Virus record (IMG/VR): IMGVR_UViG_3300013114_000583 | Span: 1 to 64,000 of that record | Length of the DNA: 64,000 nucleotides | Strand: one strand, 5' to 3' | DNA from: a virus | In this document: one piece after another, positions 3,496 through 56,911 of the stretch | Layout of the letters: the number at the start of each line of letters is the position of its first letter | How positions within the stretch are numbered: position 1 is the first letter of the stretch | The notes under the pieces: model-generated | What the model was told of the DNA's origin: nothing | Seen by the model: only the letters and a program-made list of their open reading frames with translations | Database searches by the model: none | Translations under genes and position numbers: made by a program

Positions 3496-3801
<306 letters not shown>

Positions 3802-37926: not shown

Positions 37927-38136
37927 TCACATCGGATCGGCACTGTAAGCGATTGGTGTTGAAATTACCAATAACTCTAAATCACCCTCATCGAACCATC
38001 GGTCACCATGCGACTGGTGCATAGTATGCCATCGCACGTAAACATTGCTCGCCCGATGAGGAAAATCGCGCACCGATTGAACCAAGCCAACCACATTGCG
38101 ACCATGACGAAGTCTAACCAGATCGCCAACTTTCAT
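37927..38136 (-). CDS. MKVGDLV-family small protein, isolated copy
   Basis: MKVGDLVRLRHG...VGLVQSV...WFDEGDLELL carries the family N-terminus and the G-L-V strand, followed by a different tail (STPIAYSADPM). It lies 4 kb from the main array, next to the palindrome at 38171. Confidence 0.75.
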   Translation of the reverse strand: MKVGDLVRLRHGRNVVGLVQSVRDFPHRASNVYVRWHTMHQSHGDRWFDEGDLELLVISTPIAYSADPM

Positions 38137-39864: not shown

Positions 39865-40311
39865 TTACTCGTTACCACAATTAATGTCAATTGATAGCGG
39901 TTGCGCTTCGGGGCGTGGCGGGACCCGAACAGTCAATAAACCATTCTCAAATGATGCAACAGTTCCGGAAAGATCCAGATTATCATCATAATTTACATAA
40001 GTGCGCTTAAAGGCGCGTTGGGCAATGCGTCGGTTTGGCCGTTCTGTAGGGTGATGAATAGCATCAGCTGAAACTGTAATACTTCGTTTGGCTGGCAAGA
40101 CATCGACGGTCAAATCCTCCTTGGTGAACCCTGCAAGAGCAAATTCAAGCACGGTATGATCATCCTCATCACGATAAATGTCAGCCACTGGATAGCCAGA
40201 TGTTGACGCTTCGAGATGACGTGGAAAATCGCTAAACAAGTTTTCAAACACATTGGCGAGCGTGGTGTTGCCCAATAAACCTGGGCGAGTGGATAGTGTA
40301 ATTGCATTCAT
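39865..40311 (-). CDS. Small heat-shock protein Hsp20
   Basis: I take the ATG at 40311 (MNAITLSTRPGLLGNTTLANVFENLF), preceded by GGAGGAATAATT. The alpha-crystallin core is seen as YPVADIYRDEDDHTVLEFALAGFTKEDLTVDV and a C-terminal strand VASFENGLLTVRVPP. The C-terminal tail is short. Hsp20 is a frequent T4-like marine-phage gene, thought to protect virion proteins or host proteins from aggregation. Confidence 0.93.
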   Translation of the reverse strand: MNAITLSTRPGLLGNTTLANVFENLFSDFPRHLEASTSGYPVADIYRDEDDHTVLEFALAGFTKEDLTVDVLPAKRSITVSADAIHHPTERPNRRIAQRAFKRTYVNYDDNLDLSGTVASFENGLLTVRVPPRPEAQPLSIDINCGNE

Positions 40312-40409
40312 AATTATTCCTCCTTCATTAAGCAAGTTACAATTTTGTGACCGAAACCCTTACGGCGTTTAAAGTCACAAATAATAACGTAAACACATTT
40401 TTTTGTGTG

Positions 40410-42077: not shown

Positions 42078-42239
42078 TCAAGCTCTTTCTATTCGAGAAA
42101 ATTTGATCTTATCACCATACTCTTCAAGGAGTTTTTGCTTCTTTTTCTCACAAATACTCTTGAGTGCGTAAATGTGTTGGCTTTCTCCTCTGGAGACCCT
42201 ATACGTCAAACGATAAATCACTTCTTCTTTTTTTGGCAT
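42078..42239 (-). CDS. Hypothetical basic protein, 53 aa
   Basis: MPKKEEVIYRLTYRVSR begins a Lys/Tyr/Arg-rich protein overlapping the preceding array-end gene (TGA inside ATG CCA AAA). Not recognised. Confidence 0.5.
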   Translation of the reverse strand: MPKKEEVIYRLTYRVSRGESQHIYALKSICEKKKQKLLEEYGDKIKFSRIERA

Positions 42240-42397
42240 CTCTTCACCATCTCTAAATGAATAGGACTAACAATCCATTCATTTCCTGTTTCTGTTCTAA
42301 TTACGGCATCCATCGTGTAGGCGTAAAATCCAACTACCTCGCCCTCAATGTTGCCCTTGTTTGTGATCTTAACTCGATCACCCCTTTTAAAGCTCAT
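42218..42397 (-). CDS. MKVGDLV-related small protein at the array end (59 aa)
   Basis: MSFKRGDRVKITNKGNIEGEVVGFY...WIVSPIHLEMV keeps the G-D-x-V start, a V-G strand and a C-terminal LEMV, so it is a divergent family member. It overlaps the last canonical gene by ATGA. Confidence 0.6.
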   Translation of the reverse strand: MSFKRGDRVKITNKGNIEGEVVGFYAYTMDAVIRTETGNEWIVSPIHLEMVKRCQKKKK

Positions 42398-42612
42398 TTT
42401 ACCTCCACCTTATGTAAATATCTAACTGCGCAATTCCCCGTATGGGGGATGGCCCATTCTCGTTTTCCACCACGAGTACCAGACCAATAGACGCGGGCCC
42501 GCATTGGCTCCCCCAAGCTATTCTTCAGGGTAATCTCTGTTACGACACCCAAGCCATACAACTCAGGTGGAGCACAGAAATTATCCATAGTCACCAGATC
42601 ACCTACTTTCAC
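42394..42612 (-). CDS. MKVGDLV-family array gene (72 aa)
   Basis: GTG start in the junction. Unique middle with CAPPELYGLGVV and a WAIPHTGNC turn; ends YLHKVEVK rather than SESR. ATGA overlap with the next gene. Confidence 0.8.
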   Translation of the reverse strand: MKVGDLVTMDNFCAPPELYGLGVVTEITLKNSLGEPMRARVYWSGTRGGKREWAIPHTGNCAVRYLHKVEVK

Positions 42613-42787
42613 TGACTAGCTCCACGAAATTAGCACCAAACTTAGTATAATGCGAACCAACCATGACTCGTAAAGTTCGTTGAGACGAAGGTCGATGATG
42701 ATCACCGATCCCTACTACGATTCCGACCTTCCCGCCCCACCAGTAATAGCTATCCTCTGGCAATCTGACCAAATCACCGACTTTCAC
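42599..42787 (-). CDS. MKVGDLV-family array gene (62 aa)
   Basis: MKVGDLVRLPEDSYYWWGGKVGIVVGI; Trp-rich loop. Ends FVELVSESR, whose last four codons plus stop overlap the next GTG by 14 bp. Confidence 0.85.
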   Translation of the reverse strand: MKVGDLVRLPEDSYYWWGGKVGIVVGIGDHHRPSSQRTLRVMVGSHYTKFGANFVELVSESR

Positions 42788-42959
42788 TTAACACCTCAAA
42801 ATCTGTGTCATAGCTTAACACCTCATAGTCACCATCGAAGTAAAGACACATCATGAACGCAGGCTGATCGCCGGTTGTCGCGACAACCTCCGTTATGATT
42901 CCAACCGGATGGACGCCGGGCGAGACTATATTCACTTTTATCAAATCACCGACTTTCAC
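42774..42959 (-). CDS. MKVGDLV-family array gene (61 aa)
   Basis: MKVGDLIKVNIVSPGVHPVGIITEVVATTG; Met-rich core. Ends FEVLSESR overlapping the next start. Confidence 0.85.
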   Translation of the reverse strand: MKVGDLIKVNIVSPGVHPVGIITEVVATTGDQPAFMMCLYFDGDYEVLSYDTDFEVLSESR

Positions 42960-43134
42960 TAATAACCTCTATATCTCTGATGTCTGACCAGAATGTACCA
43001 TAGTCACCGTCCCAACGTACCCTGTACGACATATGGTCACGGTCAACGGCAGCAAAACGGGCTTCAATGATTAGGCCCACGAACACCCTGCCTCTGGGTC
43101 GACCCCGCTTCTGAACCAAGTCACCGACTTTCAC
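42946..43134 (-). CDS. MKVGDLV-family array gene (62 aa)
   Basis: Arg-rich loop (QKRGRPRGRVF) then VGLIIEARFAAVDRDH. Ends IEVISESR, giving the model junction. Confidence 0.85.
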   Translation of the reverse strand: MKVGDLVQKRGRPRGRVFVGLIIEARFAAVDRDHMSYRVRWDGDYGTFWSDIRDIEVISESR

Positions 43135-43309
43135 TTACAACCTCCAAGCTTGGGGTGATAGTAGTAAACAACTGACCCGTTACCACCGATCGGATCTTAA
43201 GCGGAAAACCATGATGCTCAACTATAATACACAAACGATGACCCTCTGGTAAGTGTCTTAGATCCATCGGCGGAAGGCCAGTCCATCGCACCAAGTCACC
43301 GACCTTCAT
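43121..43309 (-). CDS. MKVGDLV-family array gene (62 aa)
   Basis: The start is ATG (43309) with a second ATG two codons upstream (MEMKVGDLV, 43315), because the previous gene is unrelated. Loop PPMDLRHLPEGHR and strand CIIVEHHG. Ends LEVVSESR. Confidence 0.8.
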   Translation of the reverse strand: MKVGDLVRWTGLPPMDLRHLPEGHRLCIIVEHHGFPLKIRSVVTGQLFTTITPSLEVVSESR

Positions 43310-43536
43310 TTCCATAGTGTCACGATATGGCCGAACTCTCTATCAAATACCTTAACCAAGCCCTCGTAATCACCCATCATCATCACTTTGCAGATGGCAG
43401 CAATTCGGCTTTCTGAATATCCCAGCTTTCGACCGATGGTTCGAGCAGCGGAACATAAAGCAAAGGCGTTCCCCTCTGCCCCGGTTAGATCAATTTCAAT
43501 AGACCCTATGGGTTTATCCTTTTTTGAGCGAATCAT
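43306..43536 (-). CDS. Conserved phage protein inserted in the array (76 aa)
   Basis: Not of the family: KPIGSIEIDLTGAEGNAFALCSAARTIGRKLG...MGDYEGLVKVFDREFG is a common phage protein motif (IDLTG..GNAF..GDYE..FD..FG) of unknown function. It overlaps the next family gene's start. Confidence 0.75.
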   Translation of the reverse strand: MIRSKKDKPIGSIEIDLTGAEGNAFALCSAARTIGRKLGYSESRIAAICKVMMMGDYEGLVKVFDREFGHIVTLWK

Positions 43537-43736
43537 TGAGCGGTACTTCTCACGATGAATTCGTTTTTTCTGTAGTACCGCACAGGCTCGCCAGGATATA
43601 AAACCTTTATTGAGTATCCGTCGAAGGCAGGATTAACCGTGGCGTGGACATGGTTGCCGATGTAGACACCGACCGTACCTTGTTCGTGAGGTTCAATCCT
43701 GCCCCAACGCTTCTGTACCAAATCACCGACTTTCAC
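43533..43736 (-). CDS. MKVGDLV-family array gene (67 aa)
   Basis: MKVGDLVQKRWGRIEPHEQGTVGVYIGNHV. It ends FIVRSTAQ, not SESR, and overlaps the inserted gene by ATGA. Confidence 0.8.
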   Translation of the reverse strand: MKVGDLVQKRWGRIEPHEQGTVGVYIGNHVHATVNPAFDGYSIKVLYPGEPVRYYRKNEFIVRSTAQ

Positions 43737-43890
43737 TGATAACCTCGTATTCGCTCATCCACTCCCAATAAATGCTGCTCTCCGTATCAAGAATCAAAAT
43801 ATGCGGGACGGTATGCCGTTGATTCTTGATCTCAAGAACAATTCCTGAGCAGCCTGCGCTTTTGTTCCTCACCAAGTCACCGACCTTCAT
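43723..43890 (-). CDS. MKVGDLV-family array gene (55 aa)
   Basis: Short frame below common length cutoffs: MKVGDLVRNKSAGCSGIVLEIKNQ...YWEWMSEYEVISESR. ATG start and TGA stop both lie in junction sequences, so it is clearly a full member. Confidence 0.8.
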   Translation of the reverse strand: MKVGDLVRNKSAGCSGIVLEIKNQRHTVPHILILDTESSIYWEWMSEYEVISESR

Positions 43891-44077
43891 TTAGCACCAC
43901 CAACATATCAGCACGAATCATCTTTGATCCCGAAGACACCAGTGCTACCTTATACCAAAGATGATTTGAGATCCCGTAGTCCACCCCAGACTCAGTAGAA
44001 ACAACAATACCAACTTCACCATACCAAGGTGGCCTAAGTGTGCCGCCTTCCATTTTTACTAAATCACCTGCGCGCAT
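43877..44077 (-). CDS. MKVGDLV-family array gene (66 aa)
   Basis: I use the ATG at 44077 (MRAGDLVKMEGGTL); the longer frame is artefact. VGIVVSTESG then LVVLNEGR; the junction base changed (NEGR). Confidence 0.8.
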   Translation of the reverse strand: MRAGDLVKMEGGTLRPPWYGEVGIVVSTESGVDYGISNHLWYKVALVSSGSKMIRADMLVVLNEGR

Positions 44078-44279
44078 ATTTAAGTTCCAACCTTGAGTGT
44101 GCAGGAGGGAATCGGTCGCTACGATTGGAATCAGCCTTTGTCCATTGAACATAATAAGGATAATTTCGACCAGGGAGTACCTTGGTTATTAGCCCCACCT
44201 GGTCTTCGCGTGCTAACCAAAGGTTGTAGTCGCGATCTTTGCCGTATGCGGACAACCTCACTAGATCACCGACCTTCAC
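44064..44279 (-). CDS. MKVGDLV-family array gene (71 aa)
   Basis: MKVGDLVRLSAYGKDRDYN, closely similar to the 48.8-kb copy (KLSAYGRKRKRAEW, W at DDIGLIT/DQVGLIT). Ends KYARR. Confidence 0.82.
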   Translation of the reverse strand: MKVGDLVRLSAYGKDRDYNLWLAREDQVGLITKVLPGRNYPYYVQWTKADSNRSDRFPPAHSRLELKYARR

Positions 44280-44469
44280 TTACCACCTTCAAATCATAGT
44301 CCCACACATTGTTCCCAACGGTACCGTTCCACCACAAGACCTTGAACACCTTATTGGTGCAACCCAGACCCTTGTTGTGTCCGATATTCTCAACGATCAC
44401 ACCAATCTTGTTCGGCACAATCCGGAACCTGCTTGGATGGTTGTCTTTCACTAAGTCACCGACTTTCAC
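44266..44469 (-). CDS. MKVGDLV-family array gene (67 aa)
   Basis: MKVGDLVKDNHPSRFRIVPNKIGVIVENIG with a Cys and WWNGTVGNN strand. Ends KVVSEGR. Confidence 0.82.
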   Translation of the reverse strand: MKVGDLVKDNHPSRFRIVPNKIGVIVENIGHNKGLGCTNKVFKVLWWNGTVGNNVWDYDLKVVSEGR

Positions 44470-44690
44470 TTTGTCAACCTCGTGAAATAATCACAATGAA
44501 CTGTCTTTTTGCTACCATCATGGTGCAAAAGGTCAGCCCAGCCCTCCTCTAGCGAATTATTGCCAGTCCAGCCCAGAAAAATCAGCGGTGATGCGCGGGC
44601 GACCGATTGTGCAAACCACTCAGAAGGCTTAACATGCTCTAGCTCCGGTACCGAACCCCAGTTAAGAAAAACCAAATCACCAACCTTCAT
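44466..44690 (-). CDS. MKVGDLV-family array gene (74 aa)
   Basis: MKVGDLVFLNWGSVPELEHVKPSEW has a longer helical insert and a Cys/Tyr end (VHCDYFTRLTK). Four-base GTGA overlap. Confidence 0.75.
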   Translation of the reverse strand: MKVGDLVFLNWGSVPELEHVKPSEWFAQSVARASPLIFLGWTGNNSLEEGWADLLHHDGSKKTVHCDYFTRLTK

Positions 44691-44869
44691 AATTTAATCA
44701 GCTCCTCCTCTGAATACCAATCCCTCTCCGAAATACAGTGGTCCACCCATCGTACCCTGTACGGAACTCTTCCAGCTTTCGCCCGGTTTGATTCTATCCC
44801 TATAACGAGACCAACCTCTATGCGGCGGTGGCCATGATGGCGGTACCGAACCAAATCACCGACTTTCAT
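44687..44869 (-). CDS. MKVGDLV-family array gene (60 aa)
   Basis: MKVGDLVRYRHHGHRRIEVGLVIGIE, His-rich loop, then WVDHCISERDW. Ends EEELIKL with ATGA overlap. Confidence 0.82.
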   Translation of the reverse strand: MKVGDLVRYRHHGHRRIEVGLVIGIESNRAKAGRVPYRVRWVDHCISERDWYSEEELIKL

Positions 44870-45047
44870 TGATTACTTCCAAGTCTTCTCTCTTGGTGAG
44901 GGTTCTTACATTATTGTCTTTATTCCACATTACGGCCTTCCTTTCATCTGTTCCAGGGATGCACCGAATAATGAGACCACACCAGTCTTTCCAATAGTTT
45001 ATAACAACCCCGTTTGGTGTGTATCTTACCAAGTCACCGACTTTCAC
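44856..45047 (-). CDS. MKVGDLV-family array gene (63 aa)
   Basis: MKVGDLVRYTPNGVVINYWKDWCGLIIRCI, then VMWNKDNN. Ends LEVINESR. Confidence 0.85.
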   Translation of the reverse strand: MKVGDLVRYTPNGVVINYWKDWCGLIIRCIPGTDERKAVMWNKDNNVRTLTKREDLEVINESR

Positions 45048-45231
45048 TGACTAACTCCAAGTGAACCGGATCAACCTGGCTCATACCACAATCGCAACAA
45101 ATGATAAAACTGTGGGCACGTTGGGCGTAGGGCATTTGGTACGCCGTGACCACAATCGCTGTCGCACATCTTACATCGCCCGCTTGACCCGAACAGCAAA
45201 GTATCGGTCTTACCAGGTCACCGACCTTCAT
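45034..45231 (-). CDS. MKVGDLV-family array gene (65 aa), Cys-rich
   Basis: MKVGDLVRPILCCSGQAGDVRCATAIVV and CCDCGM give five Cys, possibly metal-binding. Ends LELVSESR. ATGA overlap with the previous gene. Confidence 0.8.
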   Translation of the reverse strand: MKVGDLVRPILCCSGQAGDVRCATAIVVTAYQMPYAQRAHSFIICCDCGMSQVDPVHLELVSESR

Positions 45232-45500
45232 GGAATCTGCACCCCGTTCCTAATAACCTCAAATTCGCTTCTAAGGTTGTGGATGTTTGTGCCAGCATAA
45301 CCATGAGCGCGGTTGTACATTTGCGGGATCTCTCCCTGCCATGCAACAAACACGTTGTTTTGGTGCCCCCACTTATCCTTACGAATCTCGTATACAACTC
45401 CAGTATATACCCGGCCTTGATAACCGCTGCTCCAGCGGACGCGGTCGTCAGGAGTGACGACGAGCAAGTCACCAAGTTTTGGATGCCTACTTTGCCTCAC
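45228..45500 (-). CDS. MKVGDLV-related array gene with altered start (90 aa)
   Basis: Begins MRQSRHPKLGDLLVV, an insertion into the usual start, then TGVVYEIRKD and EFEVIRNGVQIP. Family membership comes from LGDLL and G-V-V; longer than its neighbours. Confidence 0.65.
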   Translation of the reverse strand: MRQSRHPKLGDLLVVTPDDRVRWSSGYQGRVYTGVVYEIRKDKWGHQNNVFVAWQGEIPQMYNRAHGYAGTNIHNLRSEFEVIRNGVQIP

Positions 45501-45672
45501 TGATTAGCTCACAATCATTTTCAATGTACTCCCTGGGAAACCAAGCTACGTTGGGGACGCCCCTAACCACGTCTGCTACCTTATACGTAATAACATCAGA
45601 TTTACTGTCCTTGTCCACTATCAATCCTATCTCGGGATAACCTTTTTCTCTCACCAAATCACCGACTTTCAC
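45487..45672 (-). CDS. MKVGDLV-family array gene (61 aa)
   Basis: MKVGDLVREKGYPEIGLIVDKD, short loop. Ends CELISEAK, where the junction lost its TGA and reads on to TAG. Confidence 0.82.
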   Translation of the reverse strand: MKVGDLVREKGYPEIGLIVDKDSKSDVITYKVADVVRGVPNVAWFPREYIENDCELISEAK

Positions 45673-45865
45673 TGATTACATCCACATACTGCTCGTTCCA
45701 CCGCTCTTTGTGTCCTAGATTTGTTAACACCCAAATATCAGGATGTAGACACGGACTTTGGTCAATGTGTGTAAGTTCCCCGTCGTACCCAACCGCAAGA
45801 ATGAAACCAGTGGAATTCCAGCTTATATATTCAGACTTGTATTTTACTATGTCACCGACCTTCAC
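45659..45865 (-). CDS. MKVGDLV-family array gene (68 aa)
   Basis: MKVGDIVKYKSEYISWNSTGFILAVGYDG with a Trp/Tyr-rich loop and a Cys. Ends VDVISESR. Confidence 0.85.
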   Translation of the reverse strand: MKVGDIVKYKSEYISWNSTGFILAVGYDGELTHIDQSPCLHPDIWVLTNLGHKERWNEQYVDVISESR

Positions 45866-46055
45866 TGATTAACTCCAGGTCTTCCTCAAAACAACTATCA
45901 AATTCACCGCTCTGTATCAGTACGTCAACAAGATAATAACATTCATATGGATAAGCCTCTCCACCCGGCTTGCAATCTTCGGAAAGCCTAGGCTTAGACA
46001 TAACAATACCTACTTCATCACAGTGTACTACGAAGACCAAATCACCGGGTTTCAT
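45852..46055 (-). CDS. MKVGDLV-family array gene (67 aa)
   Basis: MKPGDLVFVVHCDEVGIVMSKPRLSEDC has MKPGD and several Cys. Ends LELISEGR. Confidence 0.82.
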   Translation of the reverse strand: MKPGDLVFVVHCDEVGIVMSKPRLSEDCKPGGEAYPYECYYLVDVLIQSGEFDSCFEEDLELISEGR

Positions 46056-46230
46056 TTTTTATTGCTTGCACATCTTCAGAAGACTCCCAAACCGTATCAA
46101 TTATTGACGGCCTGCACCACCTAACTTTAGCCATTTTCGATTCAACGCAAAGAACCAAACCAACATCATTAAGGACTTTTTCAGTCATCCACTCATTCGG
46201 TTTGTATTTGACCAAATCACCGGGTTTCAT
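46042..46230 (-). CDS. MKVGDLV-family array gene (62 aa)
   Basis: MKPGDLVKYKPNEWMTEKVLNDVGLVLCVE. The C-terminus AIKNETR is a diverged junction. The next gene upstream is the membrane hybrid. Confidence 0.8.
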   Translation of the reverse strand: MKPGDLVKYKPNEWMTEKVLNDVGLVLCVESKMAKVRWCRPSIIDTVWESSEDVQAIKNETR

Positions 46231-46414
46231 CTACTTCGCCCCAAGCGCACTCCATAACCGCCGCAGAACACTCGTCCAAAGCTATCTTTAGTTTAGATTC
46301 TTCTAGGGAATTACACGATGTCTCTGGTTCGCCAGGTGACGAACTTTTGTGGGTAGCATACGCAAATACCATGAGCAAAATTCCTAATGCTATAACTAGC
46401 TCGCCAATTTTCAT
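46217..46414 (-). CDS. Hybrid: family start joined to a membrane helix (65 aa)
   Basis: MKIGELV is followed not by the barrel but by a transmembrane segment (IALGILLMVFAYAT) and an acidic Cys-rich tail (CNSLEESK, CSAAVMEC). The end GEVDETR still carries the junction. It looks like a cassette whose body was replaced while both junctions stayed. Confidence 0.7.
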   Translation of the reverse strand: MKIGELVIALGILLMVFAYATHKSSSPGEPETSCNSLEESKLKIALDECSAAVMECAWGEVDETR

Positions 46415-46725
46415 CTTTCAGTCCAAGGGCCTTTAACAACATTTCCCAGCTCAAACCCAGCTTGGAGTGCAGCGTCTCGGGCTGCCTCTATCTGTGCAGA
46501 ATATTCAGAAGTCAGTGACCACTTAATAGTCGCAGAGGCGTCATCGAGAACGCCCTGTACCTTACCCTCGCAAATACAAGCGAGCAAGGTACAAAACATG
46601 GCTGATGCGCGAGGATCGTCAAAAACTCCGGTTTCATAAGCATGAGCAATATCGTGTAATATCTTCGTACCTTGACGGTTCACGTTTTTCTTTGCAGACA
46701 AGAAGGATTCATACAACTCGGACAT
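46411..46725 (-). CDS. Hypothetical helical protein preceding the array (104 aa)
   Basis: I use the ATG at 46725 (MSELYESFLSAKKNVN), supported by GGAGACTTTT. Ala-rich helices and a Cys pair (FCTLLACIC). Not of the family. It probably opens this transcript, with a promoter at 46745. Confidence 0.55.
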   Translation of the reverse strand: MSELYESFLSAKKNVNRQGTKILHDIAHAYETGVFDDPRASAMFCTLLACICEGKVQGVLDDASATIKWSLTSEYSAQIEAARDAALQAGFELGNVVKGPWTER

Positions 46726-46744
46726 AAAAGTCTCCATAGATTTC

Positions 46745-46767
46745 TAGTGTATATATATAATATCATG
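46745..46767 (-). promoter_or_regulatory. Candidate phage promoter for the 46.7-42.2 kb array
   Basis: Minus-strand CATGATATTATATATATACACTA matches the consensus, about 25 bases upstream of the start at 46725. It could drive the whole downstream chain. Confidence 0.5.
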
Positions 46768-46806
46768 GCCAGAACAACAAGTCAAGGACATAGTTCATTT
46801 ATTTAT

Positions 46807-46822
46807 GAGACATCGATGTCTC
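46807..46822. repeat. 16-bp perfect palindrome
   Basis: GAGACATCGATGTCTC lies just past the end of the 27-aa microprotein. Possible operator for the array promoter or a terminator without U-tract. Confidence 0.5.
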
Positions 46823-46823
46823 A

Positions 46824-46907
46824 CTATTTACGCCACCAATCAATAGCAAGTTGACCAACAAATAGACCAATAGCAATCGCGAACACTGTCGCAATAAAAC
46901 TTGACAT
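46824..46907 (-). CDS. Membrane microprotein, 27 aa
   Basis: MSSFIATVFAIAIGLFVGQLA is one helix with a WWRK end. ATG follows directly after the MazG stop. Very short, but fits the pattern of other microproteins. Confidence 0.45.
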   Translation of the reverse strand: MSSFIATVFAIAIGLFVGQLAIDWWRK

Positions 46908-47228
46908 TTACCCCCCCTTTCGTAAAACCTCATCCAGTACAATTCCGCGATCGAACGAACCCTTAGTTTCTCGTTTTATAGAAGCCGTCCTCTTAACATC
47001 ATTCAAAGACAGTTTCCAGTTTTTTACCAAAGATAAAAAAACCTCATAAATATCCGCTGCTTCATCGAGACATGGAGTCTCTGAAAATTCAAGTAGTTCC
47101 TCCCTCATCTTCTCGATGAGAAGGGCGTCAAATTCTGCGCTGTCAGCAACGTGGGCGCGCAGCTCTTGGCCGGATTCTCTTATGATTCCTGGTATCTTAT
47201 CTCTTACCAGTTTTGGTAAACGCGCCAT
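46908..47228 (-). CDS. MazG-like NTP pyrophosphohydrolase
   Basis: LVRDKIPGIIRESG then REELLEFSE and DEAADIYEVFLSL, the E-x2-E and D-x2-A-D metal motifs of the all-alpha NTP-PPase fold. Removes pyrophosphate from (d)NTPs. A relative, MazZ, supplies dGMP in 2-aminoadenine phages, so its presence with a PurA/PurZ protein deserves comparison, but this subgroup is widespread. Confidence 0.82.
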   Translation of the reverse strand: MARLPKLVRDKIPGIIRESGQELRAHVADSAEFDALLIEKMREELLEFSETPCLDEAADIYEVFLSLVKNWKLSLNDVKRTASIKRETKGSFDRGIVLDEVLRKGG

Positions 47229-47230
47229 TC

Positions 47231-47713
47231 CTAAGTATCTTCGTCGGTATCTTCGTCGGTATCTTCGTCGGTATCTTCGTCGGTCTGAATTTCGACTAAC
47301 TCAATCTTAAAATTCAAATCCTTACCCGCCATCGGATGATTAAAATCAATAGTGACATTCTCTTCTGATTCGTTCAATATAGTGCCCATAACAGGGCCGC
47401 CTGCAGGGTTTGTTCCATGAACCACGGATCCTTTTACAAACGGAAAATCCGGCGGAAACTGTTCCTTTGGTACCTCTTGAATCGCCTCTGGGTGATGTGG
47501 GCCATATGCCTGATCGGAAGTTAACGTAATCTCTTTCGTTTCCCCCACAGTCATTCCTAGAACATTCTCTTCAAATCCGGGGATCATCATACCTGCTCCA
47601 AGCGTGAAACTAATTGGCTCCCCTCTGTCAAATGAACTGTCAAACTGTTCGCCGTCAGGGAACGTGCCCCTGTAGTGTACCTGTACCGTGTTTCCATTCT
47701 CTACTTTACTCAT
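47231..47713 (-). CDS. FKBP/SlyD-type peptidyl-prolyl isomerase
   Basis: VQVHYRGTFPDGEQFDSS, GAGMMIPGFEENVLGM and YGPHHPEAIQEV are FKBP/SlyD motifs; an insert of the IF type follows (GSVVHGT..GPVMGTIL..). The C-terminus is a four-fold DEDT tail encoded by four copies of a 12-bp repeat (47236-47285). It folds or holds proteins, and may help virion assembly. The repeat could vary in length by slippage. Confidence 0.9.
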   Translation of the reverse strand: MSKVENGNTVQVHYRGTFPDGEQFDSSFDRGEPISFTLGAGMMIPGFEENVLGMTVGETKEITLTSDQAYGPHHPEAIQEVPKEQFPPDFPFVKGSVVHGTNPAGGPVMGTILNESEENVTIDFNHPMAGKDLNFKIELVEIQTDEDTDEDTDEDTDEDT

Positions 47714-47792
47714 TTTTTCTCCTTTATCTGAGCATACACAAATTATACCTTATCTAAATATAAATGTAAACCTTTTTCTTACTTATTTTATA

Positions 47793-47865
47793 AGCTGACG
47801 GTGAGACTCGAACTCACAACCTGCTGCTTACAAGGCAGCTGCTCTGCCGGTTGAGCTACGTCAGC
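47793..47865 (-). tRNA. tRNA-Thr (UGU)
   Basis: Cloverleaf with acceptor GCTGACG/CGTCAGC, anticodon loop CCTTGTAAG (TGT) and T-arm GAGTTCGAGTCTC. The stop codon of the upstream array gene lies within its first ten bases. Confidence 0.92.
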
Positions 47866-48089
47866 ACATCCTGTAGTTGGTGTCTGGTCAACGGTTTGGT
47901 GACCAATGCTAATTCGTCTGGGCCGCTCCACCTCCGAAAAAACCGATTGCCTGTTTTAAACCAACAAACTTTAAACTGCGGGATCGCCTTGCACCCATTC
48001 TCTGCTATGATATAACCAACTGGCATTTTCTGGAAAGCATAGTCTACGCGAAAATTCTTCTTCATTTTAACAATGTCACCGACCTTCAC
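47856..48089 (-). CDS. MKVGDLV-family array gene abutting tRNA-Thr (77 aa)
   Basis: MKVGDIVKMKKNFRVDYAFQKMPVGYIIAENG; a longer C-terminus (TKPLTRHQLQDVLT) ends at TAG inside the tRNA acceptor/D region (10-bp overlap). Confidence 0.8.
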   Translation of the reverse strand: MKVGDIVKMKKNFRVDYAFQKMPVGYIIAENGCKAIPQFKVCWFKTGNRFFRRWSGPDELALVTKPLTRHQLQDVLT

Positions 48090-48255
48090 TAATAACTCCT
48101 ATACTTGGATGCCCCGGACAAAACCATCCGTCGCCGTCTCCGGTTTGCCACCTAATGAAAACGTGAGTAAGCGTAACTTGATGTACGATACCGATGTCTG
48201 TCGTAACGCAATCACTATACTCGGTATACCACTGGACTAAATCACCGACTTTCAC
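48076..48255 (-). CDS. MKVGDLV-family array gene (59 aa)
   Basis: I use the GTG at 48255 rather than a longer frame. It reads VKVGDLVQWYTEYSDCVTTDIGIVHQV, then W-rich strands. Ends IGVISEGR. Confidence 0.8.
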   Translation of the reverse strand: MKVGDLVQWYTEYSDCVTTDIGIVHQVTLTHVFIRWQTGDGDGWFCPGHPSIGVISEGR

Positions 48256-48451
48256 TGACAGCCTCGCAACAACTTGTGACAAACCATTTGATCCCCTTGT
48301 CGGCTGTCAACACTTTTAGTGTGCCGCCTTCCTCATTATCATACAGAACAATACCAACTTGATCGACTGGCTTTTCATATTTGATACGAGCGGCGTAGTT
48401 GGGGTGGTTACGTGGCGCATAATTGTAAACCACCAAATCACCGACTTTCAT
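48242..48451 (-). CDS. MKVGDLV-family array gene (69 aa)
   Basis: MKVGDLVVYNYAPRNHPNYAAR with VGIVLYDNEEGG. Ends CCEAVSESR. Confidence 0.82.
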   Translation of the reverse strand: MKVGDLVVYNYAPRNHPNYAARIKYEKPVDQVGIVLYDNEEGGTLKVLTADKGIKWFVTSCCEAVSESR

Positions 48452-48626
48452 TGATGACCTCCAGGTGTACTCTGCAAGCTGCCCAAGCCCTCCCGCGGGT
48501 GTCCAAGATACTTACCATATCTAAAGTCGGCAGAAACCTTGTGATGAGGTATACACCGCCGGGAAAGTCAGAGCGCGCAAAACCGAGCTTACGCGGAACA
48601 TGTTGTACTAAATCGCCAACCTTCAC
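48438..48626 (-). CDS. MKVGDLV-family array gene (62 aa)
   Basis: MKVGDLVQHVPRKLGFARSDFPGGVYLITRF, two-Arg C-terminal strand. Ends LEVINESR. Confidence 0.83.
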   Translation of the reverse strand: MKVGDLVQHVPRKLGFARSDFPGGVYLITRFLPTLDMVSILDTRGRAWAACRVHLEVINESR

Positions 48627-48819
48627 TTACAACCTCCAAGTCTTCTTCGTTATAGTCTTCAACGCCACAGCTAGGATCATCATACCACTCGACTCTAAAC
48701 AAATCATAGCACTGGTACCCACCGCAAATTTTCTTCGGCATGTACCCAATGATCATGCCAAGCGTATCATACTGGGTTTCTTTGCAGTCAATGAAATGAA
48801 CAAGGTCGCCAGGGATCAT
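48589..48819 (-). CDS. MKVGDLV-family array gene with read-through end (76 aa)
   Basis: MIPGDLVHFIDCKETQYDTLGMIIGY. The junction is mutated from the usual stop, so the C-terminus reads SEGWRFSTTCSA and overlaps the next start by 38 bp. Confidence 0.75.
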   Translation of the reverse strand: MIPGDLVHFIDCKETQYDTLGMIIGYMPKKICGGYQCYDLFRVEWYDDPSCGVEDYNEEDLEVVSEGWRFSTTCSA

Positions 48820-48835
48820 AACTTAATAACCCCCC

Positions 48836-49063
48836 TCACTTAACATACATCAGGTCTTTTCTGGTGTTGGAGCGTTCGTAAGACCAGCTCCGGCGGGGAT
48901 GGGTCCAGCTGCTCCGCATCCACTGGACTATGTAATCATCGGCCCACGGTTGTGAATACTCAACCACTCTGGTGATCAGACCAATGTCATCGTGGTCGAT
49001 CCATTCTGCACGTTTTCTTTTCCGGCCATACGCCGATAGCTTCACTAAATCACCGCACTTCAT
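48836..49063 (-). CDS. MKVGDLV-family array gene (75 aa)
   Basis: ATG at 49063 (MKCGDLVKLSAYGRKRKRAEW). Close sister of the 44.1-kb copy, with DDIGLITRVV. Ends RKDLMYVK. Confidence 0.82.
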   Translation of the reverse strand: MKCGDLVKLSAYGRKRKRAEWIDHDDIGLITRVVEYSQPWADDYIVQWMRSSWTHPRRSWSYERSNTRKDLMYVK

Positions 49064-49220
49064 AAACACGCTCCAGTTCTCTCTTTGGCCACCACTCAGA
49101 ATGGCCCTTATCCGTAAACGTAACCTTGACGAGGTGTCCGTCGAGGCCAAGAATTATCCCAACAACGGGCTTCTTGTCTGCCCAATCATCAACATGATAA
49201 ACCAAATCGCCACACTTCAC
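49050..49220 (-). CDS. MKVGDLV-family array gene (56 aa)
   Basis: Short frame from GTG 49220: MKCGDLVYHVDDWADKKPVVGIILGLDG, then W-W-P-K and a C-terminal YEVR. Junction overlaps both sides (GTGA after a membrane ORF, 14 bp before the next). Confidence 0.8.
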   Translation of the reverse strand: MKCGDLVYHVDDWADKKPVVGIILGLDGHLVKVTFTDKGHSEWWPKRELERVYEVR

Positions 49221-55519: not shown

Positions 55520-55747
55520 TTATTCATTTATTTTTGATAAGTGGGAGAGCCATTTTGCCCTCACCCATTTCACTTCAGAAGTTGTAATAAATTTTACTTT
55601 GCATTTGTATTCATCTGTATGCCACGGTGTTCTCTCGGGATAACTTACGTTCTTGTTGATTGGCTCAGTTTCGATCACAATACCACGTGCACCTGGGTTT
55701 TGATATTTCACTTCTACCAAATCGCCTACATCAAATTTTTGTCTCAT
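55520..55747 (-). CDS. MKVGDLV-related protein (75 aa)
   Basis: I use the ATG at 55747 (MRQKFDVGDLVEVKYQNPGARGIVIETEP). VGDLV and G-I-V match; the tail WVRAKWLSHLSKINE is new. Confidence 0.7.
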   Translation of the reverse strand: MRQKFDVGDLVEVKYQNPGARGIVIETEPINKNVSYPERTPWHTDEYKCKVKFITTSEVKWVRAKWLSHLSKINE

Positions 55748-55819: not shown

Positions 55820-56041
55820 TCACACCCTCTCTAAAGACCCACTAGAAAATAAACAAAGTCTTCCAGTTTCTTGGATATGAACCTCAACAAGATTTTCACC
55901 GAGGGCATCAGTATGGGAAGAAATACCCACAACAATTCCTATCTTGCCTTCCCAATCATAGATGCCAAGACCAAATGATGCACCGTGTCGAGATAGTGTC
56001 GGACGTAACTTAAGTGCCCTAACAAGAACGCCGGCGCGCAT
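55820..56041 (-). CDS. MKVGDLV-related protein (73 aa)
   Basis: MRAGVLVRALKLRPTLSRHGASF lacks the GD but has the later KIGIVVGIS strand and QETGRLCLF. Likely relative. Confidence 0.6.
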   Translation of the reverse strand: MRAGVLVRALKLRPTLSRHGASFGLGIYDWEGKIGIVVGISSHTDALGENLVEVHIQETGRLCLFSSGSLERV

Positions 56042-56246
56042 AGTGTACCAATTCCCCTTTTTCTATCGCATTGGAAAGTTTAAGTGCTTCAGCTTCAAAT
56101 TCATTAACGAGGTGATATGCTGGATGGTTGCGTCGAGGGCTGCGCAAAACATATTTCCAGAAAATTATGCCTTCGCGCTTAAAACTTTTGATGAGAATAC
56201 CAGTAGCATTGTGAGGTTCATAATATACCATATCACCTACTCTCAT
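56019..56246 (-). CDS. MKVGDLV-related protein (75 aa)
   Basis: ATG at 56246 (MRVGDMVYYEPHNATGILIKSF) directly after the tRNA; the upstream frame reads through the tRNA and is not real. Long charged C-terminus. Confidence 0.7.
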   Translation of the reverse strand: MRVGDMVYYEPHNATGILIKSFKREGIIFWKYVLRSPRRNHPAYHLVNEFEAEALKLSNAIEKGELVHYARRRSC

Positions 56247-56254
56247 AGTGGTAG

Positions 56255-56328
56255 CACCCTGGGCAGGGCTCGAACCTGCGGCATTTTGATTAGAAGTCAA
56301 ACGCTCTATCCAACTGAGCTACCAGGGC
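56255..56328 (-). tRNA. tRNA-Arg (UCU)
   Basis: Acceptor GCCCTGG/CCAGGGT, anticodon loop CTTCTAA (TCT), T-arm with GGTTCGAGCC. The gene at 56306 ends inside its 5' half. Confidence 0.92.
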
Positions 56329-56521
56329 TAAACATTCTGTACTCAGGGCCGAGTGAATCGACTAACTCAAGAGTTTCCTCGAAATCGTCAAACCAATAGA
56401 CACGCATCAAATGGTCACGCTCGGAGTGGTAACCCAACACCAAACCCATAATCCAGTCTGGTTCGGTGTCACAACCTTCGCACAAATTAAACTGAATTAG
56501 GTCGCCTCTTTTAAGACGCAC
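56306..56521 (-). CDS. MKVGDLV-related protein ending in tRNA-Arg (71 aa)
   Basis: MRLKRGDLIQFNLCEGCDTEPDWIMGLVLGYHSERDH fits the pattern; it ends SPGSSVG with TAG inside the tRNA 5' half (23-bp overlap). Confidence 0.7.
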   Translation of the reverse strand: MRLKRGDLIQFNLCEGCDTEPDWIMGLVLGYHSERDHLMRVYWFDDFEETLELVDSLGPEYRMFSPGSSVG

Positions 56522-56711
56522 TTATAACCTCCAAGTCACTGGAACAGTTGGCGACGCACTCTCCGTTTTCCCAAAATACGAAGAAATATCTTGTGTTTCT
56601 ATCAAGGATGATGCCGCGCTGGCGTACATCGACGAGGCCAACAGTATCATAATTCACTGTGTGCCAAATTTCGTTTATTTCGTTCCATTTAACGAGATCG
56701 CCTATCTTCAT
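56511..56711 (-). CDS. MKVGDLV-family protein (66 aa)
   Basis: MKIGDLVKWNEINEIWHTVNYDTVGLVDV; ends LEVISAS, a diverged junction. Overlaps its neighbours. Confidence 0.78.
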   Translation of the reverse strand: MKIGDLVKWNEINEIWHTVNYDTVGLVDVRQRGIILDRNTRYFFVFWENGECVANCSSDLEVISAS

Positions 56712-56911
56712 TCTTTTTTTATCTTCTTTAACATATGAACGGGGAGATCAACTATTTTTGTTTTATCCGACCAAGACATGTGAACGCGCCACCAACCGTC
56801 CGGAATTTCTTGTACAAGAATAGCTTTTGTTGCAATTTTCTCGTTTCTAACAAAGTGAGATGCGCCAGCGACGATCCACACCAGATCGCCCGGCTTAAAA
56901 GCCCCAGTCAT
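56708..56911 (-). CDS. MKVGDLV-related protein (67 aa)
   Basis: ATG at 56911 (MTGAFKPGDLVWIVAGASHFVRNEK); the longer frame is unlikely. Ends HMLKKIKKE. Overlaps the stop of the next-upstream gene. Confidence 0.65.
   Translation of the reverse strand: MTGAFKPGDLVWIVAGASHFVRNEKIATKAILVQEIPDGWWRVHMSWSDKTKIVDLPVHMLKKIKKE

Follow-up and report, generated by a model that had tools for sequence, protein, structure and literature searches.

A probable array of exchangeable cassettes encoding small SH3-like barrels in a marine T4-type phage

A tandem array of small genes

We analysed the first 64,000 nucleotides (bases 1-64000, here called the window, to which positions refer) of IMG/VR virus record IMGVR_UViG_3300013114_000583, which is 139,834 bases long. 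The record is from a marine T4-type phage; the TerL, MCP, UvsX and gp32 genes are all T4-type. The minus strand of the window carries a head-to-tail row of genes of 55-90 codons, each predicted to encode a single SH3-like barrel. An earlier note on this DNA had counted about 26 genes in tandem, and the count holds: a family profile matches 24, and adding divergent copies brings the total to 26-27 units. For comparison we use at least 119 other loci (L numbers), which are IMG/VR stretches retrieved by the junction pattern described below; family counts refer to these stretches and the window.

42394..49220, minus strand: main array, 24 family-profile matches, SH3-like, transcription from high to low coordinate
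44466-44690, 45228-45500 and 42218-42397, minus strand: divergent copies in the main array
42946..43134, minus strand: canonical 62-aa unit; its model is a five-strand SH3-like barrel
45659..45865, minus strand: divergent unit, 68 aa, with the canonical fold; orthologues in L048 (80% nucleotide identity), L092, L105 and L098

Junctions between units

Exact 14-nt overlaps, which the earlier note had missed, join 19 neighbouring gene pairs in the window; the GGTGA form accounts for 18 of them. The overlap, GTGAAAGTCGGTGA (or ATGAAA...) on the coding strand, is used in two frames. As GTG/ATG-AAA-GTC-GGT-GAT it encodes the M-K-V-G-D that opens the next gene, and in the other frame it ends the preceding gene with ...E-S-R-stop (TGA). 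The stop of one gene lies inside the start of the next, and therefore a unit has no stop of its own. The codons ahead of the overlap, E-[VL]-[IV]-S, form GGAGGT-x-AT-x-A, a ribosome-binding site. One junction serves as an example:

42768..42793, minus strand: start of unit 42599-42787 (GTGAAAGTCGGTGATTTGGT) overlaps the stop of unit 42774-42959 by 14 nt

The consensus over 527 linked starts is TgGAGgT.aTcAgTGAAAGTCGGTGATtTgGTa, and a ribosome-site-like string stands ahead of 452 of them. The DNA at the start of units, (A/G)TGAAAGTCGGTGATTTGGT, is nearly constant, and a junction 21-mer has 15 matches in the window at three or fewer mismatches (0.00 expected). Among the listed loci, -14 is the commonest spacing between neighbours (491 of 746 pairs) and -4 the second (85 pairs).

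The tail [SN]E[SGN]R ends 380 of 549 units with a junction downstream and 6 of 594 without one, and is thus a by-product of the junction rather than a feature of the protein; a conserved C-terminal SESR, considered as a protein signal, was discarded for this dependence. A gene outside the profile precedes 79 of 522 linked starts and itself ends in the junction tail, so a unit start can stop any in-frame upstream gene. By eye, passenger genes were named as ClpP-like, thymidine-kinase-like, GIY-YIG-like, MazG-like, SWIM-zinc-like, Smr-like and small membrane proteins (examples at L100 9993-10613 and L037 5861-6406, and in L063, L072, L091, L013 and L113).

A scan that covered sigma-70-type promoters alone, together with terminators, returned 17 promoter-like sites (17.5 expected) and 5 terminator-like sites (7.7 expected), and no such site recurs at each junction. 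An Rfam search of the region found nothing but tRNAs.

One family with a predicted SH3-like fold

A single 62-position profile, on which the E-values and family counts rest, aligns 1,093 of 1,133 units, in agreement with the earlier claim of one homologous family. In an AlphaFold2 model of unit 42946-43134 (pLDDT 91.0, pTM 0.76), strands lie at 6-9, 19-27, 35-41, 47-51 and 55-59, and the divergent unit 45659..45865 (pLDDT 82.4) was modelled with the same topology. Both models have five strands in SH3 order and a short 3-10 turn before the last strand. At TM 0.60-0.70 and E-values from 0.035 upwards, the modelled unit matches PWWP, Tudor, SAWADEE and KOW domains; the matched structures include the UvrD Tudor domain, Spt5 KOW, PWWP and ribosomal proteins. 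The models support a small SH3-like barrel as the predicted fold of the family, much as the earlier note had proposed (an SH3/KOW-like small barrel).

Barrels of the PWWP, Tudor and KOW kinds (PDB 4ld6, 5dma and 7okx chain Z) are, like the family, five-stranded and about 60 residues long (TM-score 0.63-0.68), whereas sequence matches to them are not significant and no binding partner can be carried over from them. Peptides, proteins and nucleic acids are all known ligands of SH3-like barrels of about this size. Profile A1 matched NusG chain 2xhc (KOW) weakly, at E 0.014, and had no match to Pfam KOW. Pfam, PHROGs and NCBIfam gave no assignment for family members, Pfam scores lying below cut-offs, and PADLOC, a library of defence rather than anti-defence proteins, returned 0 families for 60 members. 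A search for domain fusions found almost none, with a single two-domain open reading frame. The best viral matches in a BFVD fold search are unnamed small proteins, several with near-consecutive UniProt accessions (A0A516M7xx, A0A516MBxx), which suggests one or a few deposited environmental phage genomes with the same array.

Distribution across viruses

Among the matches listed, the junction was found in about 100 IMG/VR contigs. Together with the window, the listed stretches hold at least 1,244 family genes, at least 1,158 of them distinct, with a median length of 65 aa. All 30 large records tested hold 4-29 family copies. In 24 of these 30 the terminase is 51-72% identical to that of the phage studied here, and 26 have a UvsX homologue; the records without a terminase or UvsX match are mostly shorter.

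Nine stretches sit in contigs of metagenome-assembled genomes (MAGs), several of them marine by title. Loci L209 and L212 (CP070664.1) place cassette junctions within a 2.8-Mb candidate division WOR-3 MAG chromosome record; the source is a provirus or else phage DNA that the assembly drew into the MAG. The family was not found in three T4-type relatives, the cultured Microcystis phage Mel-JY01 and Flavobacterium phage immuto and the metagenomic phage LR756508. Array DNA compared with 50,697 phage records gave tRNA matches only, and tblastn of two units gave no credible match.

Exchange of whole units between viruses

The window units have specific relatives in other viruses (best E 1e-36) and hardly any within their own array. 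A relative elsewhere at E < 1e-8 exists for 19 of 30 window units. Window units with orthologues elsewhere include:

48242..48451, minus strand: unit with an L048 orthologue (78% nucleotide identity over 223 nt)
48076..48255, minus strand: unit with orthologues in L092, L034 and L064
44266..44469, minus strand: unit with an L016 orthologue (82% nucleotide identity); of all window units the most widely shared, matched 13 times in other loci

The order of the orthologues is scrambled. In L048 the orthologues of units 48242 and 45659 adjoin, while the window copies lie well apart. Overall, 21 neighbouring pairs elsewhere have both members matching window units, and none of these is adjacent in the window.

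Homology between viruses breaks at the junctions. Blocks start within a span that runs from 20 nt upstream of a unit start to 10 nt downstream of it, and they end 0-29 nt inside the next unit. For blocks at least 90% identical, a junction lies at 78% of the starts, where random placement within the arrays concerned predicts 16%, and at 89% of the ends, where it predicts 21%. Loci L012 and L014 are 99.5% identical and differ by exactly one unit, with the 20-nt repeat ATGAAAGTCGGTGATTTGGT on both flanks of the extra unit. L034 and L064 have seven single units in common, in permuted order (six at 84-95% nucleotide identity and one at 75%), and flanking genes that are about 70% identical. L076 and L119 differ by replacement at the level of the unit. 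The junction anatomy, the unit-precise gain and loss, the scrambled order and the sharing between viruses are thus direct observations.

The units at L119 4128-4334 and L076 1248-1442 have similar C-terminal halves (AWTPSQCIEVV) and dissimilar N-terminal halves, which suggests that recombination within units also occurs.

A large pool under purifying selection

Similar pairs make up 0.32% of comparisons within arrays and 0.18% between viruses; apart from some local duplication, an array is thus nearly a random sample of a common pool. An origin of the row chiefly through in-place copies of a single gene, implied by the earlier note, is not supported by these rates. At 50% interior identity the 1,133 units fall into 811 types, of which 640 were seen once. 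The Chao1 lower estimate is about 2,700 types, and the pool probably comprises thousands.

For orthologous units dN/dS is 0.20, none of 257 pairs exceeds 1, and strands (0.156) and loops (0.174) are alike. By this measure orthologous units are under purifying selection, and ratios of about 0.2 in both parts indicate that the proteins are maintained. Diversification of the loops, considered as the source of variety, is not supported by these values and was rejected. The retained, diverse repertoire that the note described is real and is seen in many viruses; its variety comes from the exchange of whole units.

Interpretation and alternatives

We consider it probable that the region is an array of exchangeable cassettes, each a single SH3-like barrel gene that is swapped whole at the junctions. 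Each cassette would provide a start for itself, a stop for its in-frame predecessor and a ribosome site for its successor. A cassette that supplies all three may follow any other and still have its own frame translated. The constant 20-35 nt at each junction may act as a recombination site, at which phages of one marine T4-type clade would gain, lose, permute and exchange whole cassettes. UvsX and gp32-like genes are present in the array phage's own genome, and exchange would probably proceed by this phage-encoded recombination at the repeated junction during co-infection. Translation may proceed by termination-reinitiation on one polycistronic message, and one operon may run from a promoter-like site at 46785, which is a match to consensus only:

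46757..46785, minus strand: extended -10 promoter-like site (TTGACT-17-TATTAT, TG), upstream of the lower sub-array

The gene products are candidate small adaptors for varied host proteins or nucleic acids, serving takeover or counter-defence. The earlier note had raised a multi-target host-binding or anti-defence role as a possibility. The adapted entity would then be the set of units, suited to local hosts, rather than any single member. A reshuffled pool of constrained, mutually unlike members would fit adaptors for varied host targets, counter-defence included.

Several points weigh against the cassette interpretation. The 79 non-family genes that end in a junction mean that cassettes are not exclusively one family. 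Similar pairs are about 1.8 times as frequent within arrays as between viruses, and five such pairs are neighbours, which shows that units are sometimes duplicated locally. Order is partly kept: across all pairs of viruses, 19 of the 42 adjacent pairs are retained, where shuffling predicts 2.4, and close relatives account for most of them. Retrieval by the junction itself biases the share of -14 overlaps, and every contig is a metagenomic assembly. In a sample chosen by terminase, 12 related records yielded arrays (6-16 copies) in no more than 5-6 cases, although many of these records are fragments.

Among the alternatives, the best placed is a set of regulators, in which KOW/Tudor-like barrels bind RNA polymerase, the ribosome or nucleic acid and redirect host transcription or translation, the variety reflecting binding sites rather than defence. 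A set acting in this way would fit nearly as well as adaptors. The weak NusG KOW match points in this direction, and so do the structural matches given above (UvrD Tudor, Spt5 KOW, PWWP, ribosomal proteins). However, the sequence matches are all non-significant, SH3-like barrels bind many things, and the pool is larger than a fixed regulatory role needs; on balance we regard this explanation as possible but somewhat unlikely.

The plug-in anatomy of the units, the hundreds of types mostly seen once, the junction on non-family genes and the failure to find arrays in about half of the related records would also suit selfish cassettes, whose ends permit harmless insertion between genes and whose proteins do little for the phage. 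The low dN/dS in strands and loops, a sign that the proteins are maintained, and the fit of nearly all units to one barrel profile oppose this idea and make it improbable.

A little less probable again is ordinary tandem duplication in place through unequal crossing-over, with later divergence of the copies and the overlap reflecting nothing more than gene packing. It would explain the head-to-tail order, the single family and the few similar or adjacent pairs inside arrays. It does not sit well with the closest relatives of most window units being in other viruses, with within-array similarity near the between-virus rate or with order scrambled between viruses, and as the main recent process it is strongly disfavoured. 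Very improbable is an assembly artefact, in which the repeated junction led short-read assemblers to link unrelated units into false arrays and false permutations: all records are metagenomic and the junction repeat spans 20-35 nt, but the same anatomy recurs in about 100 contigs from many samples and also in MAGs, permuted units differ by 5-25% in sequence, beyond what mis-joining creates, and usual assembly word lengths exceed the repeat.

Other features of the phage genome

The array chain is broken at two places, 46230-47856 and 43306-43536. The first break holds a membrane-protein gene, a 108-aa gene, a MazG-like gene, an FKBP gene and a tRNA-Thr; the second is a gene whose 3' half and following junction are common to L048 and L092. 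Satellite units lie on either side of the main array, and a profile search of the remaining 76 kb of the genome found zero further family members.

46217..46414, minus strand: membrane-protein gene, a non-family passenger; starts MKIGELV and ends in a -14 junction
43306..43536, minus strand: non-family gene within the array (phrog_1933)
37927..38136, minus strand: isolated satellite unit, family profile
55520-55747, 56019-56246, 56306-56521, 56511-56711 and 56708-56911, minus strand: five satellite units, family profile

For protein folding and rescue the phage is unusually well equipped, with genes for GroEL, a DNA polymerase with a DnaE-like N-terminus, tmRNA, FKBP and HSP20 (whole record 64994-66580 and 72385-75810; window 3496-3801, 47231-47713 and 39865-40335). 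Separately, at least six otherwise unrelated proteins open with a near-identical peptide, MKLIMENWRK(x)L, and a seventh copy is internal (minus strand, 2806, 4857, 30823, 30160, 31628, 33656 and 34281). The peptide may be a head-targeting or prohead-protease signal.

Comparison with known systems

Modular shuffling at promoter-stem-loop (PeSL) elements has been described in T4-type phages (Arbiol et al., 2010; Comeau et al., 2014, as cited in PMC4503421). Both systems involve T4-type phages and a short repeat between small variable genes as the place of module exchange, and here too the breakpoints fall at a repeated sequence, the junction. In PeSL shuffling the repeat is reportedly a non-coding promoter-terminator element and the modules are unrelated genes. 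The array's repeat, in contrast, is coding in two frames and its modules nearly all belong to one protein family; sigma-70-type promoter-like and terminator-like sites were no commoner than chance, and none stood at each junction.

Lambdoid phages form mosaics by way of short conserved gene boundaries (Clark, 2001; Susskind and Botstein, 1978, as given in PMC3029335). Homologous recombination at such borders resembles the exchange proposed here. Each lambdoid boundary sequence is reportedly particular to one gene pair, whereas here one junction is reused about 20 times in one genome and across the clade.

Integron cassettes are likewise promoterless single genes held in arrays, exchanged singly and drawn from a very large pool. 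The array differs in that its junction is a coding overlap rather than an attC site and its cassettes belong to one fold family; 14-nt coding overlaps would leave no room for a typical attC. A tyrosine recombinase (PF00589) was not found in the 139.8-kb record, in which controls were detected. Diversity-generating retroelements also give a phage many variants of a small binding scaffold, but orthologues in the array are under purifying selection in their loops, and no reverse transcriptase (PF00078) was found in the array phage's genome. Members of a locally duplicated tandem family would resemble one another more than they resemble those of other viruses, a pattern that was not found here. 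No earlier description of such an array was found in the literature searched. The array works like known shuffling systems but with the differences given above, and it has a reasonable chance of meriting a separate category.

Significance

The array offers a concrete, testable mechanism for the fast turnover of small uncharacterised genes in virulent phages. On the question of phage mosaicism, the exchange site here can be read straight from the sequence. The analysis also exposes a large unannotated family of at least 1,158 distinct members, matched by neither Pfam nor NCBIfam above cut-off, whose proteins probably act on the marine bacteria that serve as hosts. As a natural design the junction is compact: start, stop and ribosome site share one short overlap, and units can be strung in any order. 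More broadly, and only tentatively, we suggest that a whole marine T4-type clade keeps a dedicated combinatorial repertoire of stop-less, self-punctuating cassettes, in which the 14-nt dual-coding overlap would be start and stop at once and also the central part of the recombination site, and through which a population-wide library of thousands of SH3-like effectors may be reshuffled singly against changing hosts or defences.

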